A DNA stretch of 49,104 nt, from assembly GCA_937893275.1 (NCBI GenBank), contig CALBIN010000027.1, positions 1 through 49,104 of the forward strand, in the 5' to 3' direction. The position numbers were made by a program, and so were the translations under genes. Below the pieces are notes generated by a model. It saw only the letters and a list, made by a program, of their open reading frames with translations. It did not search any database and had not been told where the DNA came from. The stretch is from an uncultured Opitutia bacterium (lineage in GTDB: Bacteria > Verrucomicrobiota > Verrucomicrobiia > Opitutales > Seribacteraceae). Of the stretch, positions 10,252-21,464 are shown piece by piece (position 1 is the stretch's first letter; each line of letters starts with the position of its first letter).

Positions 10252-13200
10252 TTAATTATTTAGTAGCGGCTTAAGGTATGGAGCGGTTGGACTTCCTTTA
10301 ACCTCAACGATTTCTTCGGGTTTTCCAGAAAACAATATTTTGCCTCCATTATCTCCCCCTTTGGGGCCAATTTCAACAAGGTAATCGGCGTTAGCGAGTA
10401 TATCCAAGTTATGTTCTATTACTATTACCGTATGGCCATCGTCCACAAGTCGATGAAGCAAGTGCATTAATTTAACACAGTCTGTAGAATGCAAACCTAT
10501 GCTAGGCTCTTCCAAGATGTAGAGGTTCCCTATATTCAGAGCATTTTGATTGATATTTTTTCGAGTGAGAATTCCTTTAGACATTTCACTTACAAGTTTG
10601 ACACGCTGTGCTTCACCTCCTGAAAGCGTTGGCGAACTCTGGCCCAAAGACAAGTATCCCAATCCTGTCTCTACCATGAGGGCCATCATTGCCTTAAGCT
10701 TAATGTCAAAAGAGAAAAAATCCACAGCTTCGAGAAAAGAGAATTGAAGGATTTCGGCTATATTTTTCCCCTTCCAACGCAAATTCAACATGTCGGGCGA
10801 ATATCGTAGGCCTCCACAGTCTTCACATAGAATATATGCATCCGGCAAAAAATTCATCTCGAGCTTTATCCTCCCGGCTCCTTTACAGGTTTCGCAACGC
10901 CCCCCTTTGACATTAAAGGAAAAAGCTTTTGGCCCGAGACCCCGAACCTGTGCCTCGGGAAGGGAGGACAACAACGAGCGAATACGATCCCAAGCCCCTA
11001 TGTATGTTGCAGGTGACGAACGAGGGGTCTTGCCGATAGGGCTTTGGTCGACTTCGATTACCTTTGCAAATCGATTTCCATTGAGAACCTTGCGAAAGGG
11101 TGCTTTACCGCAAGACTCATAAGGAAAAATTCCTTGGTCGAGTAAAGCTCGGCTCGTTAAAACAGGTTCTCTAGTTTTGACAGCCTGAGCAACTGCAGGC
11201 TTAATCAAGCCCCGAGCAAGAGTTGATTTGCCTGCTCCTGAAACACCGCACAAGGCAATCAGCCGATTAACTGGAAGCCATACATCTATATTTTTAATAT
11301 TTCGTATGTTCGCTCCTATGATGCCAAACCAGTCTTGTGAAATTTTGCGTGAACGAGAATTTGGTTTATCTCGTGGCATTTCGCGAGATTGACGACCCAA
11401 TGATTGCGATAAGCCTTCCCTAAGAAATTTTGCAGTCGAAGATTTCTTGGAATTCAATACTTCTTCAGGTTTTCCACTTGCAAGTAGCCAACCGCCGGAT
11501 TCTCCGGCCCCGGGTCCAAGATCTATAATGTGATCAGCCCTAAGCATCGTCTCTTCGTCATGTTCAACGACGAGAAGAGTATTACCTTTGGCTTTAAGAA
11601 CTTCCAAAGATTCAAGGAGACGTTGATTGTCCTTGGCGTGAAGACCAATTGAAGGTTCATCCAGAACATAAAGAGCCCCGGAGAGGTTTGAGCCGAGTTG
11701 AGATGCCAGCCTAATACGTTGAGCTTCACCACCCGAAAGAGTTGTGGTTGCTCGATCCAAGCTTAGGTAATCGAGTCCTACCGACTCCATAAATGCGAGG
11801 CGTTCACGAATCTCCGGTAAAATCATTTCCGCAATCGCCTTACCTCTGTCATCAAATTCAAGCCTGTTCAGCATCCATAAAAGTTTAGGAGGAGTAAGCC
11901 GAAGTAGGTCAGGTAAATTTGTAATCTGATCATCACTAAGACGAATGAAAACGGATCGAGAAAGTTCAGCTATGCGATCCCCGTTGCATGAGACACAAAC
12001 GTCACCATCGTAAAGTTTTCCCAAACCAGAACCGACAGAAAGGCCACTCTTTAATCGATTATCGATTCGTCCATAACCACGGCAAACCGGGCACCATCCA
12101 CGAGGGGAATTCCAGGAAAAAAGCTTAGGTTGAAGTTGAGGAAATGCCTCACCAGTGTTCAAGTCTACACGAGCAGTAGAAAGCCAAACGGCCTCACTTA
12201 AATTGCTGCAAAAAAGATATGCACTGCCCTTGCCGACCGAAAGGGCTTCCTCTAAAGAACTTCTAAGAAAATCAGTGTCGCTTCTTGTAATTTGCCTCAC
12301 GACTAAGTCAACATCATGCTCGGCATAACGGCTAAGCCCCTCAAATCCTTCCGCTGAAACCATTGACCCATTACAACGCAGAAGTTCGTACCCTTTTGAT
12401 GCGGCCCATGTAGCCAATGGTCTGTGATGACCCTTACGCCCACGAACAAGAGGTGAGCAAAGATAAAGAAATTCTTTATATTTATTCTTTTTTAAATTTC
12501 TTCGAGCGGCGGCACTCAGGCGTTTCAATAGAATTTCAACAGAGGAGCTCTCGACAGGCGCCCCGGTTGAGGGACTATGCTGAATGCCGATTCTGGCGAA
12601 AAGAAGTCTGAGATAATGAGCGACTTCCGTAATTGTCCCTACTGTCGATTTTCTGGTTCCTCTAGTAACGCGTTGTTCGATCGCTACAGTGGGAGGAAGG
12701 CTAGAAATTGCATCTACAGCAGGACGCGGCAATTGCTCCACAAATTGACGGGCATAGGAAGACATTGATTCGAGAAATCGTCGTTGCCCTTCTGCAAATA
12801 CAATATCGAAAGCCAAGGAAGATTTACCCGACCCCGAAGGCCCGGTTACTACCGTGAACGCATTCAAGGGAATGTTGAGTGAAAGATTCTTTAAGTTGTG
12901 TTCCCTAGCCCCATCGATCCTCACCGAATCCAATGAGGCATTAGGCCGATATCGTGATTGCTCTTCCGCTAAACAACACATCGGGAGTATTTTGGAAATG
13001 GAATTCTTATTAAAGTAATCAGCCAAAATGTCACCTGTCGAAGTACTAAGTTTCGCGACTTTCCTTGGTAAACCTTGGGCAATAACCTTACCCCCATCAC
13101 CGCCTGCTCCTGGTCCAAGCTCTATGACTTGATCTGCATTTGCAATGATGTCCAACTGATGCTCTATCACTATAAGACTGTGACCGTTTCCAGTGAGTCT

Positions 13201-15801
13201 TTTGATGACCTGCAGTAGGCACGCTACATCATCTCGATGAAGCCCAGTGGTAGGCTCATCTACCAGAAGGAGGGAAGGTTTGTCCCCAATTCCTATTTTG
13301 GTAATGTACTTGGCCAATTTCAGGCGTTGAGACTCTCCTCCTGAAAGCGTGGAGAGGGGCTGACCGAGCGATAAGTAACCAAGACCTACTTCTGCAACCG
13401 TACTAAGATTTCGAGCAGCACGGGGAATACGAGAAAATTGCTCGATTGCCTCTGTAACCGAAAGGCTTAGAATCTGGGTCACATCAAGACCATCTAGCCG
13501 AATCGACAGAATTTCATCTTTAAAGCGCCGCCCCTCACAAGCCGGACAAGGAGTAAAAACATCTGCGAGAAATTGCATTTCAATTCGTTCATAACCAAGG
13601 CCTTCACATTCCTCGCATCGACCGTCTTTTGAATTGAAAGAAAAGTGAGAGGCGGAAAGACCCGCCCGGCGGGCGTCGTCAGTACGAGCAAAGGCAGAGC
13701 GAATAGGATTCCACGCATCCACGAAAAGAACAGGGTTCGATCGAGGAGTCTTTCCGATGGGCGTTTGATCAATCGTGACTATTTCGGCAAAATCGACATC
13801 TGCGCAAATATGGTCGATTATGGCCGAATTTTCCATAGGATTACCCAAAGGAGCAAGCAGGCCTTCTCTAATAATGTTAAGAAGAGTTGACTTTCCCGAA
13901 CCCGACACGCCCGCAAGAACGACAAAGCAACCTATTGGAATGTCTAAATCTAGTTTGCAAATGTTATTACTAGATGCACCTCGGATTCGGAGAAGTGATT
14001 GTTGCTTTAGAATTTTCTTGTTGCGAACGGATCGCAGAAGATCGATGGACTTTCGCCCCGAAAGGTAAGCCCCTGTGATGGATTTCTTGTCCTCCTCCAG
14101 TTTTGCCACAGAACCGCGAAAAGTAACTCGCCCGCCTTTTGCTCCCGGAGAAGGGCCGATTTCAATGACTTGATCGGCAGCTCGAATGATTCGCTCGTCA
14201 TGTTCGACAACACAAACAGCATTCCCTTGGACGGCAAGCTCTCTCAGAATTCCAATTAATCGGTCCACGTCCTTTGCATGCAAGCCGATAGATGGTTCAT
14301 CTAGAGCAAAAAGAGTCTCAGTGAGGGAAGCACCTAGACAGGCCGTTAAGTTAACTCGTTGCATTTCACCTCCACTCAAGGTCTTGGACGCACGGTCTAA
14401 AGATAAATAATTCAGACCAACTTGTTCAAGATATCCGAGGCGGGCGCGAATCCCTTCGAGAGCAAGGTCGGCACGATGGTTTCCGCCGGACTTGGCGTAC
14501 CGTTGGAGGTCTGCGTCAAGTTTCGCAATAGGCATGGCGTAAAGGTCGGGTAGCGTGTTTCCCCGCCAGTGCCAGAGAAGAGATGCCGCGCTGAGGCGAG
14601 CACCTTCGCAGTCCGGACAAGAAACATAACTCCTGTACTTTGACAGAAAAACGCGCACATGCATCTTGTAGGTTTTTGACTCGAGCCAACGGAAAAACCT
14701 GCGTAGGCCATACCACATCCGCGCATCTTCCACATAGTCATCCTCGCCATTGAGGATGAAGGCTTTCTCGGTCTCTGAAAGGAAGGACCAGGGCGCCTCG
14801 AGGGGGAAACCGCGTTTGCGGGCAACCCGAATAAGATCTTGCTGCGACCGACCATAAACCTCGCCTCGAAATGCACGAATCGCACCCTCGACTATAGACA
14901 GTGAATGGTCGGGGATAACTCGGCGATAATCGATTTCGATGATTCGGCCAAACCCTTTGCAGCGGGGACAGGCGCCCAAGGGAGAATTAAATGAAAAAAG
15001 CGAAGGAGAAGACGGTGCAAAAGAAACCCCATTAACGGGGGATCTAAGACCTTCAAATCGTGAACACAAGGGTTTCCCTTTGTCGTTAAAGAGAACGAAT
15101 TCACCGTTACCTAGTGTTAAGGCCGTGGACACGGCATCGGCAATCCGTTTGCGGTTATCAGGGAGAATAGTAATTTTCTCTAACCCGACAAGCAACTCGC
15201 CTGCAGACCAGTTCGCATCCAGCAACTCTTCAATACGGCAGAAAGAATTCTTTTCGGATGCTCGTACATAGCCTGCCTGAATCAGAGCACCTAGAAATTC
15301 TTTTGCGGGAAAAGCGTCCGGACGAAGGGAACGGAAGCCAAATACTAAACATTTTCCTGCAAACTCTTTTAAAACTCCTCGGGTGAGGGAGGTGGAAGTT
15401 TCTTCTCGTAAGAGTTTGCCTGAAGAAGGATCCAGCAATTTGGCAACGCTCGGGAACCACACCTTAAAATAGTCACACAATTCGGTCATCGTTCCTACCG
15501 TGGAGCGAGAATTTCGAACGGAATTGCGCTGTTCAACCACAATGGAGGGGCGAATGTTTTCTACGGCGTCGACCTTAGGTCGTGGCATCGTTTCCAGAAA
15601 TTGACGAACATAAGGATTAAAAGTCTCGACATAGCGTCGTTGTCCTTCCGCATGCAAGACCTCGAACAGTAAGGAGGATTTGCCAGCTCCACTTAGCCCA
15701 GTGATTACGGTTACCTTACCGGGCATCAAGTCGAGATTAACGCCTTTTAAATTGTTTTGGCGTGCCCCACGGACACGAATTGGTTTGGTATGTCGCTTCA
15801 C
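10252..15801 (-). CDS. uvrA: Double-length UvrA (two complete UvrA units, four ABC ATPase domains)
   Basis: Damage-recognition ATPase of nucleotide excision repair, at 1849 residues about twice the usual 940. Residues 1 to about 950 form one UvrA and about 955-1849 a second. Walker A motifs are [27 protein letters not shown] and GVSGAGKST, and four LSGGE signatures follow. The CxxC pairs of the zinc-finger insertion in the second ATPase of each half are intact (CEECEG/CPACEG and CETCKG/CEDCGG). The classical first zinc finger has only its second CxxC in both halves. The last Walker B reads ILEEP instead of LDEP. The start is GTG, with GGGAG upstream; no in-frame ATG precedes it. Long UvrA is known in chlamydiae, which supports a PVC origin. 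A canonical UvrA works as a homodimer; this chain may be a built-in dimer (inference). Confidence 0.95.
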
Positions 15802-16286: not shown

Positions 16287-16670
16287 ATTTTAAGGCAAAA
16301 GTCAGTCAACAGTTGCGGTTTCGGCTTCAAGTCTAAAAGCCGCATTCACAAGCGTGAGGAATTTCAAACCGTTAAACAGAAAGGAAAGCGTGTACGCACT
16401 AATCATTTCTTGGCGCAAGTGCTTATTGACGAAGAAAGGCCAACGACTGAAAGAAGGATCGGAATAATTGCAACAAGACGACTAGGAAACGCCGTCAAGC
16501 GCAACCGAGCCAAAAGAGTCTTTAGAGAGTTGTTTAGGAATCATAAAGAAAATCTGCCCAAGAGATGCGATTTGGTGGTAATTCCGCACTCAACTTTTTT
16601 TTCGCAATCCTATTCGACATTGGAGATGGACTTTCTGCATACATGCAAACGCTTTAAAACAGATAGATGA
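16287..16670 (+). CDS. rnpA: Ribonuclease P protein component, start codon uncertain
   Basis: Basic protein subunit of RNase P, which with the catalytic RNA trims tRNA 5' leaders. The central signature RRLGNAVKRNRAKRVFRELFR is the RnpA RNR motif. Upstream sequence (HKREEFQTVKQKGKRVRTNHFL) is also clearly RnpA, so the in-frame TTG at 16410 is too late. That frame opens at 16242 after a TAA, yet contains no ATG, GTG or TTG before 16410. The only likely start upstream of the conserved region is ATT at 16287. An ATG at 16279, overlapping the rpmH stop, is in another frame and terminates after four codons (MLLF). The coordinates given use ATT. The stop overlaps the yidC ATG (ATGA), so coupling downstream is intact. 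Confidence 0.85.
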   Translation: MLRQKSVNSCGFGFKSKSRIHKREEFQTVKQKGKRVRTNHFLAQVLIDEERPTTERRIGIIATRRLGNAVKRNRAKRVFRELFRNHKENLPKRCDLVVIPHSTFFSQSYSTLEMDFLHTCKRFKTDR

Positions 16671-18763
16671 AAAACTACCTCATTGGCTTCAGCCTATTGC
16701 TTTTCGCCACCTACCTTTATGTGGAACAAGCGAAAGTACAGCAGAAAAACGCGGAAGAAAAGCAGTTGCATGATACGAGCTTAAGACCATATCCACGCGA
16801 TAGTAACTATACAGCCCCTACCATAACTGATGTCGCGGCCGGCAAAATGCGGCCAGACGTCAACGCAACTTCTATTTCTACGAAGATTCCTCACCAGCTT
16901 AAAACATACCCTGGACTTGTCAGCAAAAATTCTTCTTTTGAATTCACTACTCTAGGCGGTGCTATCAGTGCGGTACATTTGGAAGAGGCAGGACGCCTCA
17001 AAAAAAGATATGACATGACATTCCCTACGAATGAAAATGGCCAAGGCATTGACGGTAATGCATTTAGCATGTCGTTCGAGGACCATGATGGCACTCCTCT
17101 GGGCAACCCATTACCAGGCTACGATTCTAGAGCTTACGAAATCGGCAGGGAAGATTTGAATTCCGAGATAACCTTCGTAAATCGCTCGGACAACTTTGAG
17201 ATTCGTCGCGAATATTTTCGAGAAACAAACGAAACCTATTTGATTAGGCATAGAACAACCGTAATTAACAAAGGAGACTCCAGCCTAAAGCTCGATAGGA
17301 TTAGGTTCGGTATAGGTTCAGCATTTCCTATACCCCGAAAATTTAATTTCATCGACCAGGCTGAGTCTTACATGCATGTCGGCTACTTCAATTCGGGAAA
17401 CCCTCAAGAGGCTGGTTGGGGGTGCGCCAAATGCAGTGGTCGCATTGATGGGGAAACCGAAGAGTTTTTTCAGGTTAACGAAATGGGTGACTACGACCGT
17501 CTTCACGAGGGAAAGAAATTATCCGAAGCCAAATGGGCTTCAGTTAACAATCAGTTTTTCGTTAGCATTCTTCGGCCTAAGGACGAAAAGGATGCCGTTG
17601 TTCGAGGAATGCCAATTGAGCGTGGCACGGACGGCAACGCCAGCAATCGGGAACAAGGAGTAACGGGATCCATTTCAATTCCTTTCGGCGAGATTCCTCC
17701 CGGAGAGAGCAGAAGCGTCGAGTGCTTCTACTATGCGGGGCCAAAAGATTATATGATACTCTCCTCATTGGGAATGGAACAGGACAAGGTTATGCAGTTT
17801 AACCCATTTGAGTGGGTTTCTGGGCCGATGAACTGGCTTCTAAACAAGTTGCAAGGCATTCTAGGCAACTTCGGCCTAGCGATTATTTTCCTGACAATCA
17901 TCCTTAAATTGGTGCTGTGGCCCCTTACGGCAAAAGCTACACGCTCCCAGAAAAGAATGCAGGCGTTGCAGGAGCCAATGGCAAAACTCCGAGAAAAACA
18001 CAAAAATGATTCACAGAAAATGAATCAGGAAATGATGAAGTTTTACAAGGAGCAAGGGGTCAACCCATTTGCGGGGTGTTGGCCTATTCTAGTTCAAATG
18101 CCTATATTCTTGGGAATGTTTTATATGCTTAGGTCGGCTGCTGAATTGTACGGGCAAAGTTTTCTATGGGTAAGTGACCTTTCCGAGCAAGACAACATCA
18201 CAGACATCGCGGGGTTTTCGATAAATGCTCTGCCCTTTGTAATGTTGGCCACACAGTGGTTTCAAATGAAGCTTACACCCATGCAACTTGGTCCTGACGC
18301 CAGTGATTCTCAGCGTATCAACGCGAAAATGATGCGAATGATGCCGTTCATGTTCCTCGTGTTTTTGTATTTCTTTTCTTCCGCACTGGTTCTGTATTGG
18401 ACAGTGCAGAATACGATGAGCATCTTCCAGACACTCATTACGAAGAAGGGAAAATCTCCGAAGGAAATTGAAACCGAAAGAAGTCTTTTAGCGAAAGATG
18501 AAGCTAAGGTCGGTCAGAAAAAACCTGATGCCGATTTCATCGAGGAAGAGGAAAGGCAACATCGCCAAGTGCTCGGTTTAAAGTTGCGCGGAAAGCTAAA
18601 CAAAAAACAAATCGATGAAATTTATCGGGGGCGAATGGAGAAGTATCATCCCGACAAATTACGTAACCTTGGAGCCAAACGCCAGGATGAAGCCATGCAG
18701 AAAAAAGAACGGCTGGAAGCTGCCTATGAATTTCTCTTGAAGAAACTTGCCAACAAATCTTGA
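16667..18763 (+). CDS. yidC: YidC membrane protein insertase with C-terminal J-domain
   Basis: Inner-membrane insertase that folds and inserts membrane proteins alone or with SecYEG. An N-terminal membrane segment (about 4-20) leads to the large periplasmic beta domain of Gram-negative YidC. The Oxa1-like core (about 375-600) follows, with GNFGLAIIFLTIILKLVLWPL, a cytoplasmic hairpin (KNDSQKMNQEMMKFYKEQGVN) and four further helices. Unusually, after a linker the last 70 residues form a J-domain: VLGLKLRGKLNKKQIDEIYR, then the HPD motif at residues 661-663 (KYHPDK), then a helix ending LEAAYEFLLKK. The standard length is about 550-620 residues; this has 698. The start overlaps the rnpA stop by four bases. 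The tail would lie in the cytoplasm, so it could recruit DnaK (inference). Confidence 0.95.
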   Translation: MKNYLIGFSLLLFATYLYVEQAKVQQKNAEEKQLHDTSLRPYPRDSNYTAPTITDVAAGKMRPDVNATSISTKIPHQLKTYPGLVSKNSSFEFTTLGGAISAVHLEEAGRLKKRYDMTFPTNENGQGIDGNAFSMSFEDHDGTPLGNPLPGYDSRAYEIGREDLNSEITFVNRSDNFEIRREYFRETNETYLIRHRTTVINKGDSSLKLDRIRFGIGSAFPIPRKFNFIDQAESYMHVGYFNSGNPQEAGWGCAKCSGRIDGETEEFFQVNEMGDYDRLHEGKKLSEAKWASVNNQFFVSILRPKDEKDAVVRGMPIERGTDGNASNREQGVTGSISIPFGEIPPGESRSVECFYYAGPKDYMILSSLGMEQDKVMQFNPFEWVSGPMNWLLNKLQGILGNFGLAIIFLTIILKLVLWPLTAKATRSQKRMQALQEPMAKLREKHKNDSQKMNQEMMKFYKEQGVNPFAGCWPILVQMPIFLGMFYMLRSAAELYGQSFLWVSDLSEQDNITDIAGFSINALPFVMLATQWFQMKLTPMQLGPDASDSQRINAKMMRMMPFMFLVFLYFFSSALVLYWTVQNTMSIFQTLITKKGKSPKEIETERSLLAKDEAKVGQKKPDADFIEEEERQHRQVLGLKLRGKLNKKQIDEIYRGRMEKYHPDKLRNLGAKRQDEAMQKKERLEAAYEFLLKKLANKS

Positions 18764-19649: not shown

Positions 19650-21464
19650 GTGATCGGAAGCAAAACAGATCCCGATTACCTAAACGGAATTGGCGAGGTT
19701 GGTCTTGTAAAACCCAAGGAGTTCCGTGACGAATCACCTTTTCAATTTGAAAGAGGTGGGGAAATCTCATCCATAAATTTACGTTATGAAACATATGGAG
19801 AGCTGGCTGCAAACAAGGAAAATGCGATCCTTATATGCCATGCTCTAACGGGCGACCATCATTGTGCCGGGGTTTATTCGCCAGAGGATGCGAAACCAGG
19901 TTGGTGGAACCAAATGATAGGCCCAGGAAAGGCCATCGATACAAAACGATTCTTTGTAATTTGCTCGAATTGCCTTGGTGCATGCCAAGGCTCCACTGGC
20001 CCAACCTCACTCAATGAAGCTACGGAGAAACCATACGGCATCTCATTTCCAGAGTTAACCATAGGCGATATGGTTTTAGCCCAAAAGCGTTTAGTGAAAC
20101 ATCTCGGCATCGACAAGCTCTATGCCGTCGTAGGAGGCAGTATGGGCGGGATGCAAGCGTTGCAGTGGGCAGTGTCCTGCCCTGAAATAGTCGAACGAAC
20201 CGTAGTGATCGCAGCGACAACGCGACACAACGCCCAAACAATCGCCTTTAACGACGTCGGTCGAGCTGCCATCCAGGGCGACCCAGAATGGAACAGTGGA
20301 AACTATACGTCCGGCGGGGGTCCGGAGGTCGGACTCGCGATCGCCAGAATGATGGCTCACATCACTTACCTTTCGGGCAAAGGCATGGAGCAAAAATTCG
20401 GTAGATCTCGCCGCGAGCAAATAGACAGTGACACAACGAAGTCAATAAAGGCACATTTTGGGGTTGAGTTCCAGGTTGAAAGCTACCTGCGCCATCAAGG
20501 GAAAACCTTCGTAAACCGCTTTGACGCGAACACTTACCTCCATCTCACCAAGGCTCTCGATCGATTCGATCTTCACGCGGAGGAGGGAGGACTCGAACAA
20601 TCCCTCAGTCGAATAAATGCCCGCACTCTTGCTGTAGGTTTCACATCAGACTGGCTATACACTCCAAAACAAAATCGTGAAATTGTGGAAACTCTCCAAT
20701 GCCTAGGCAAGGATGCTTCCTATGCTGAAATCGATCACGATTTCGGTCACGATTCCTTCTTACTCAAATCCGAACGATTCCATCGCCTTATACAAGTTTT
20801 TCTGGAAGGAGCTGACCAAAAAGAACTAGACCGCCAAAGTTCTAGGCCCGACTCGATCACTCGCACCGAAGCAAAAAAAGAAGCTGATTTTCGAGTAATT
20901 GATGAATGGGTCGGGCAAGGCGAAAGCGTTCTTGACCTAGGGTGCGGTCGCGGGATTCTCCTAGAACACTTAGCCAAGACCAAACAGGTCCGAGGTTTAG
21001 GCGTGGACATCGATATTGAGAAAGTCATTGGCTGTGTCTCAAGAGCTGCTCCGGTCTATCAAGGCGATGTTCGCAAAACTCTTGCTGGCTTTCCTGATGA
21101 TTCTTTCGACTGGATCGTATTCTCCCGCACAATGGAAGAATTAAACAACCCATGTGAAGTTATTGAAAAAGCCCTGCAGGTTGCCAAGCGAGTCGTTGTA
21201 AGTTTTGTTAATCACGGTTATTGGCGTAATCGACTCCACTATTTCTTAAATGGCAGTCGGATCATAAACGATGTATACGACAAGGCTTGGCACGAACGGA
21301 CCCCCATCAACCCTATAGCAATCCATGATTTCGAAAAGTTTTGTCGAAACCGCAACCTAGTCCTCCGCAGGAGAGTGTGCCTAGGCGGAGACTGGAAAAC
21401 CCATTGCAGAGTCCTCCCAAACCTACTTGCCGGAGTGGCAATATATGAGGTAGGAAGAACTTAG
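19650..21464 (+). CDS. metX: Homoserine O-acetyltransferase fused to MetW-like methyltransferase domain
   Basis: Two enzymes in one 604-residue chain. Residues about 10-390 are MetX, an alpha/beta hydrolase that acylates homoserine for methionine synthesis. It has the nucleophile elbow GGSMGG (Ser164), conserved NCLGACQGSTGP, and the catalytic Asp and His (Asp in FTSDWLY, His in DHDFGHDSF). Residues about 405-604 are MetW-like, with SAM-binding DLGCGRGILLEHL, the acidic GVDID after the second strand, and FPDDSFDWIVFSRTMEELNNP. MetX and MetW are usually separate neighbours. The start is GTG at 19650; an ATG at 19633 is out of frame and stops after six codons. Its 3' end overlaps the convergent Deg protease by four bases. 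The MetX acyl-donor preference (acetyl or succinyl) cannot be settled by eye. Confidence 0.93.
   Translation: MIGSKTDPDYLNGIGEVGLVKPKEFRDESPFQFERGGEISSINLRYETYGELAANKENAILICHALTGDHHCAGVYSPEDAKPGWWNQMIGPGKAIDTKRFFVICSNCLGACQGSTGPTSLNEATEKPYGISFPELTIGDMVLAQKRLVKHLGIDKLYAVVGGSMGGMQALQWAVSCPEIVERTVVIAATTRHNAQTIAFNDVGRAAIQGDPEWNSGNYTSGGGPEVGLAIARMMAHITYLSGKGMEQKFGRSRREQIDSDTTKSIKAHFGVEFQVESYLRHQGKTFVNRFDANTYLHLTKALDRFDLHAEEGGLEQSLSRINARTLAVGFTSDWLYTPKQNREIVETLQCLGKDASYAEIDHDFGHDSFLLKSERFHRLIQVFLEGADQKELDRQSSRPDSITRTEAKKEADFRVIDEWVGQGESVLDLGCGRGILLEHLAKTKQVRGLGVDIDIEKVIGCVSRAAPVYQGDVRKTLAGFPDDSFDWIVFSRTMEELNNPCEVIEKALQVAKRVVVSFVNHGYWRNRLHYFLNGSRIINDVYDKAWHERTPINPIAIHDFEKFCRNRNLVLRRRVCLGGDWKTHCRVLPNLLAGVAIYEVGRT

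Follow-up and report, generated by a model that had tools for sequence, protein, structure and literature searches.

A J-domain is a module that normally recruits the chaperone DnaK, and class C J-domain proteins act at translocons, Sec63 at Sec61 and Pam18/Tim14 at TIM23. The C-terminus of YidC is cytoplasmic by its known topology, and in some YidC/Oxa1 proteins it is extended by a Lys/Arg-rich tail that binds the ribosome. In all systems tested, stimulation of Hsp70 depended on the HPD motif, and DnaK is positioned by five basic residues of DnaJ, R22, K26, R27, K48 and K51 (PMC8215388). Mitochondrial Pam16 is a precedent for a J fold without HPD that was kept at a translocase, and a 2026 review posed as an open question whether HPD-less J proteins are evolutionary accidents or were selected (PMC13254874).

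The stretch of DNA analyzed here (the window; 49,104 nucleotides) carries a yidC ORF of 698 aa at 16667..18763 (+), the sole full-length YidC found in the window's genome. The YidC/Oxa1 insertase core (60KD_IMP, PF02096) was matched at residues 402-594 (17870..18448, +) with an E-value of 3.6e-58, TIGR03592 was matched at 1.5e-62, and the periplasmic domain PF14849 was also matched; insertase activity is predicted for the product. The gene is placed between rnpA (16410..16670, +; TIGR00188, 4.5e-16), which is the usual yidC neighbor, and a YebC-family gene. The core is followed by a fast-evolving linker (residues 595-631; 18449..18559, +), disordered over most of its length in AlphaFold2, and by a J-domain at approximately residues 632-692 (18560..18742, +), in which the HPD motif is formed by H661-P662-D663 (18647..18655, +).

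That YidC ends in a J-domain with HPD had been proposed in an earlier note from the letters of the window, and a real J-domain fused to the cytoplasmic end of YidC was confirmed by Pfam (at the cut-off), NCBIfam, AlphaFold2, Foldseek and selection; helix II, HPD and the C-terminal helix had all been placed correctly. When the tail was scanned in isolation, DnaJ (PF00226) matched residues 638-692 at 27.8 bits (E = 2.8e-6), a score equal to the gathering cut-off. A scan of the whole protein gave 23.6 bits, under the cut-off; the best match by a YidC of the window's family was 3.2e-9. Among NCBIfam J-protein models, ActJ (9e-9), DjlA (2.6e-5) and HscB (1.1e-4) matched the tail, each under its own cut-off. 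The tail was modeled with AlphaFold2 from an alignment of 33 rows, shallow like the others used here, and the model consisted of helix I (627-636), helix II (646-660) and a long helix III/IV (670-697), with pLDDT of 75-90 across the J-domain and <50 for tail residues 1-30, the linker. Helices II and III are antiparallel with the HPD loop between them, which is the J fold. With Foldseek against the PDB, the best matches were the J-domains of HscB and DnaJB6 (probability 1.00, rmsd 1.6-1.7 Å, 57-59 columns); the E-values of 0.1-0.3 are not significant taken alone, and weak values are normal for a domain of 60 residues.

As in Sec63 and Pam18/Tim14, a J-domain is tethered to a protein-translocation machine and could in principle recruit Hsp70; the YidC tail differs in being a covalent part of the insertase, bacterial, and on the cytosolic (cis) side. 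It resembles the ribosome-binding tails of YidC/Oxa1 as a functional extension of the cytoplasmic C-terminus, although here the extension is a folded J-domain and there a Lys/Arg-rich tail. In J-domain type it is like DjlA, DjlB/DjlC and ActJ, two of which (ActJ and DjlA) were the top-scoring NCBIfam models, whereas these membrane-linked or short bacterial J proteins are separate and unfused to an insertase. The earlier note knew of no described YidC-J fusion, and none was found in the open-access literature searched. If DnaK is recruited, the tail would be, by that literature, the first case of a J-domain covalently linked to the universal insertase, and a chaperone would be coupled to insertion on the cis side.

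For the distribution of the tail, Verrucomicrobiota were searched and contigs were scanned with YidC-core patterns. The window's family, a family of uncultured Opitutales, was sampled with 42 genomes in 4 genera (g1, the genus of the window; g2; g3; and g4, basal), with one full-length YidC per genome. All complete YidCs found there, from ~35 genomes and all 4 genera, carried the J tail. In the order Opitutales (177 genomes), no J-type tail was found on YidCs outside the family among the matches listed, and 35 of 35 YidCs read from other families ended in a Lys/Arg-rich tail, mostly short. Long YidC ORFs also occur elsewhere in Opitutales; 20 of these were read, and the idea that they carry a J tail was rejected. 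When the tail profile was searched against 388 genomes of the phylum, from 199 genera, the matches listed included no YidC-sized ORF beyond that of the window; the remaining matches were free J proteins of 138-311 aa. The earlier suggestion of a lineage-specific extension therefore held among the genomes searched, but the lineage is one Opitutales family and not Verrucomicrobiota at large: the extension was present throughout the window's family and absent from the others. As a separate observation, YidCs of one other Opitutales family (f16; L053-L059) had long, basic C-tails that were not J-like and shared a conserved terminal RKKNPGGRST, in contrast to the short tails of YidCs in other families.

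A maximum-likelihood YidC tree was built without the tail. YidCs of the window's family were monophyletic (100/100), with g4 branching first, then g1, then g2+g3 (100/100 for g2+g3). HPD was intact in 4/4 g1 tails, the window's among them, and in the 1/1 tail of g4, and was absent from 30/30 tails of g2 and g3. Mapped on this tree, the HPD state required one change, a loss in the ancestor of g2+g3. The order of g4 and g1 is less sure than this single loss, because each sits on a long branch and g4 is represented by one YidC. In a tree of J tails, HPD and non-HPD YidC tails formed one clade (100/100) separate from free J proteins, so fusion most likely occurred once and HPD was ancestral. The best match of the YidC tail in its own genome was the free membrane-anchored J protein described below; the donor of the tail was not resolved by the J tree (73 columns).

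In pairwise comparisons among four g1 genomes, the J part had 12-19 synonymous and 0-3.5 nonsynonymous changes (dN/dS 0-0.06), against 0.03-0.06 for the insertase core, 0.20-0.26 for the periplasmic domain and ~0.05-0.21 for the linker. Purifying selection on the J-domain is as strong as on the insertase core. The HPD-less J-domain of g2 and g3 had dN/dS of 0-0.2, with ~0.13-0.45 for the linker (some pairs were saturated). These tails have a signature of their own: N634, L649, Y660, L665 and M668 were invariant, N659 was present in 27/30, and the position of H661 was occupied by S, T or E. AlphaFold2 predicted the J fold for them as well, with a core pLDDT of ~90, and HscB was the best match by both sequence and structure (PDB). 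Type IV J proteins have a J fold that can still be recognized but a non-conservative replacement of HPD, and the g2/g3 tail is such a pseudo-J (type IV) domain; that of the window, with its HPD, is not. With Pam16/Tim16 and other type IV J proteins, g2 and g3 share an HPD-less J fold at a site of membrane translocation; they differ in that the fold is part of YidC and any partner J protein is putative, and the window differs in retaining HPD. A single HPD loss with the fold retained bears on the question of accident or selection (PMC13254874), as ~30 species in one clade carry an HPD-less J-domain under purifying selection on a single-copy insertase, beside close relatives with HPD intact.

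The earlier note had also suggested that the tail could recruit DnaK, a reading for which the support is partial. A full-length DnaK is encoded in the window's genome, and genomes of HPD-less genera encode DnaK as well, so loss of HPD through loss of DnaK was ruled out. As HPD was lost once, the fold is under selection and DnaK is present, DnaK recruitment is not the conserved function; coupling is plausible by sequence for two genera alone, that of the window and the basal one. Even in the window, four of the five basic DnaK-positioning residues were replaced, three by acids (D650, E681 and E684), and only R654 was kept; this basic surface, scored as lacking in the window, is a supporting rather than a strictly defining feature of a class C J-domain protein. 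Three of the five were kept in the basal genome, two in L007, and 0 or 1 in the HPD-less tails, and the series reads as a DnaK surface eroded by degrees until HPD itself was lost.

Ancestral DnaK coupling with a later drift to a DnaK-independent docking role gave the best fit and is put forward with middling confidence. The sole YidC most likely acquired a class C J-domain at its cytoplasmic C-terminus once, in an ancestor shared by the whole Opitutales family, and this domain stands where relatives have a Lys/Arg-rich tail. In that ancestor, and probably to this day in g1, the J-domain would engage DnaK-ATP via HPD from a flexible tether of ~35 residues, and Hsp70 would so be brought to the insertion site and the membrane proteins there. 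In the ancestor of g2+g3, HPD and the remaining DnaK contacts were lost and the fold was kept with new invariant residues. The fusion, the J fold, its single origin, the single HPD loss and purifying selection are computational results, and DnaK binding and a docking partner are predicted from them. A second, fold-dependent docking role may have taken over in both genera. As most of the family lost HPD yet kept the domain, the YidC J-domain probably has another role too; its long-term function is probably the docking of a putative partner at YidC, and DnaK coupling is probably ancestral and perhaps weakened in the window.

It is conceivable, though we favor it less, that docking was independent of DnaK throughout, the J fold binding another protein as in Pam16 and the HPD of the window being a relic. 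Loss of HPD from 30/35 tails with the fold retained agrees with this, as do the reversed charges at DnaK contacts even in tails with HPD and the Pam16-Pam18 precedent (PMC13254874); against it stand the strong purifying selection on the whole domain and an HPD that does not vary in g1 and the basal genome. An example of a candidate partner is a membrane-anchored J protein of the same genomes (L003, 196 aa; G000:C541, 1480-2070, -), encoded beside htpG in the window's genome. HPD was intact in all members read, an N-terminal hydrophobic hairpin was judged by eye, and near-full-length homologues were found in the window's family only, among the matches listed from 132 Opitutales genomes, a distribution that also favors docking throughout. 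From these sequences the protein is a possible partner of the YidC tail. That the YidC pseudo-J is a bacterial counterpart of Pam16, which would hold the HPD-competent membrane-anchored J protein at the insertion site and so control DnaK there, is a more speculative and rather unlikely proposal, under which the window's family would preserve intermediates from active J to pseudo-J.

The tail might instead be a folded ribosome-binding tail, a moderately basic J-like domain in place of the Lys/Arg-rich one, with the J fold incidental. The basic tail of the YidCs read from other Opitutales families (35/35) is missing in the window's family, and the net charge of the J part is +7 in the window and +12 in the basal genome. 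However, the tails of the derived genera have a median net charge of only about +2 to +4 and have lost the basic C-terminus, their last 25 residues carrying ~0 to +1.5 where other families carry +7. Nor does this account explain why HPD is invariant in g1, and we consider it improbable. A score only just at the Pfam cut-off would suit a chance resemblance or a chimeric assembly, an explanation with next to no probability: the same fusion recurs in ~35 separately assembled genomes that form one clade, with dN/dS near 0 and a J fold by structure search.

The periplasmic domain of the window's YidC also contains a CxxC at residues 253-256 (17423..17434, +). It reads CAxCSxRIDG, was invariant in 20/20 aligned YidCs of the window's family, and did not occur in 35 YidCs from elsewhere in Opitutales, a set that includes partial sequences. 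By this comparison of Opitutales YidCs, the CxxC appears as a second YidC feature confined to the window's family. Elsewhere in the window, a double-length UvrA (10252-15801, -; 1849 aa) consists of two UvrA units in tandem, and NF001885, a model of ~1800-aa UvrA (1809 positions), also matched it, far under its cut-off. At 19650-21464 (+), a single 604-aa ORF is a fusion of MetX (homoserine O-acetyltransferase) and MetW.
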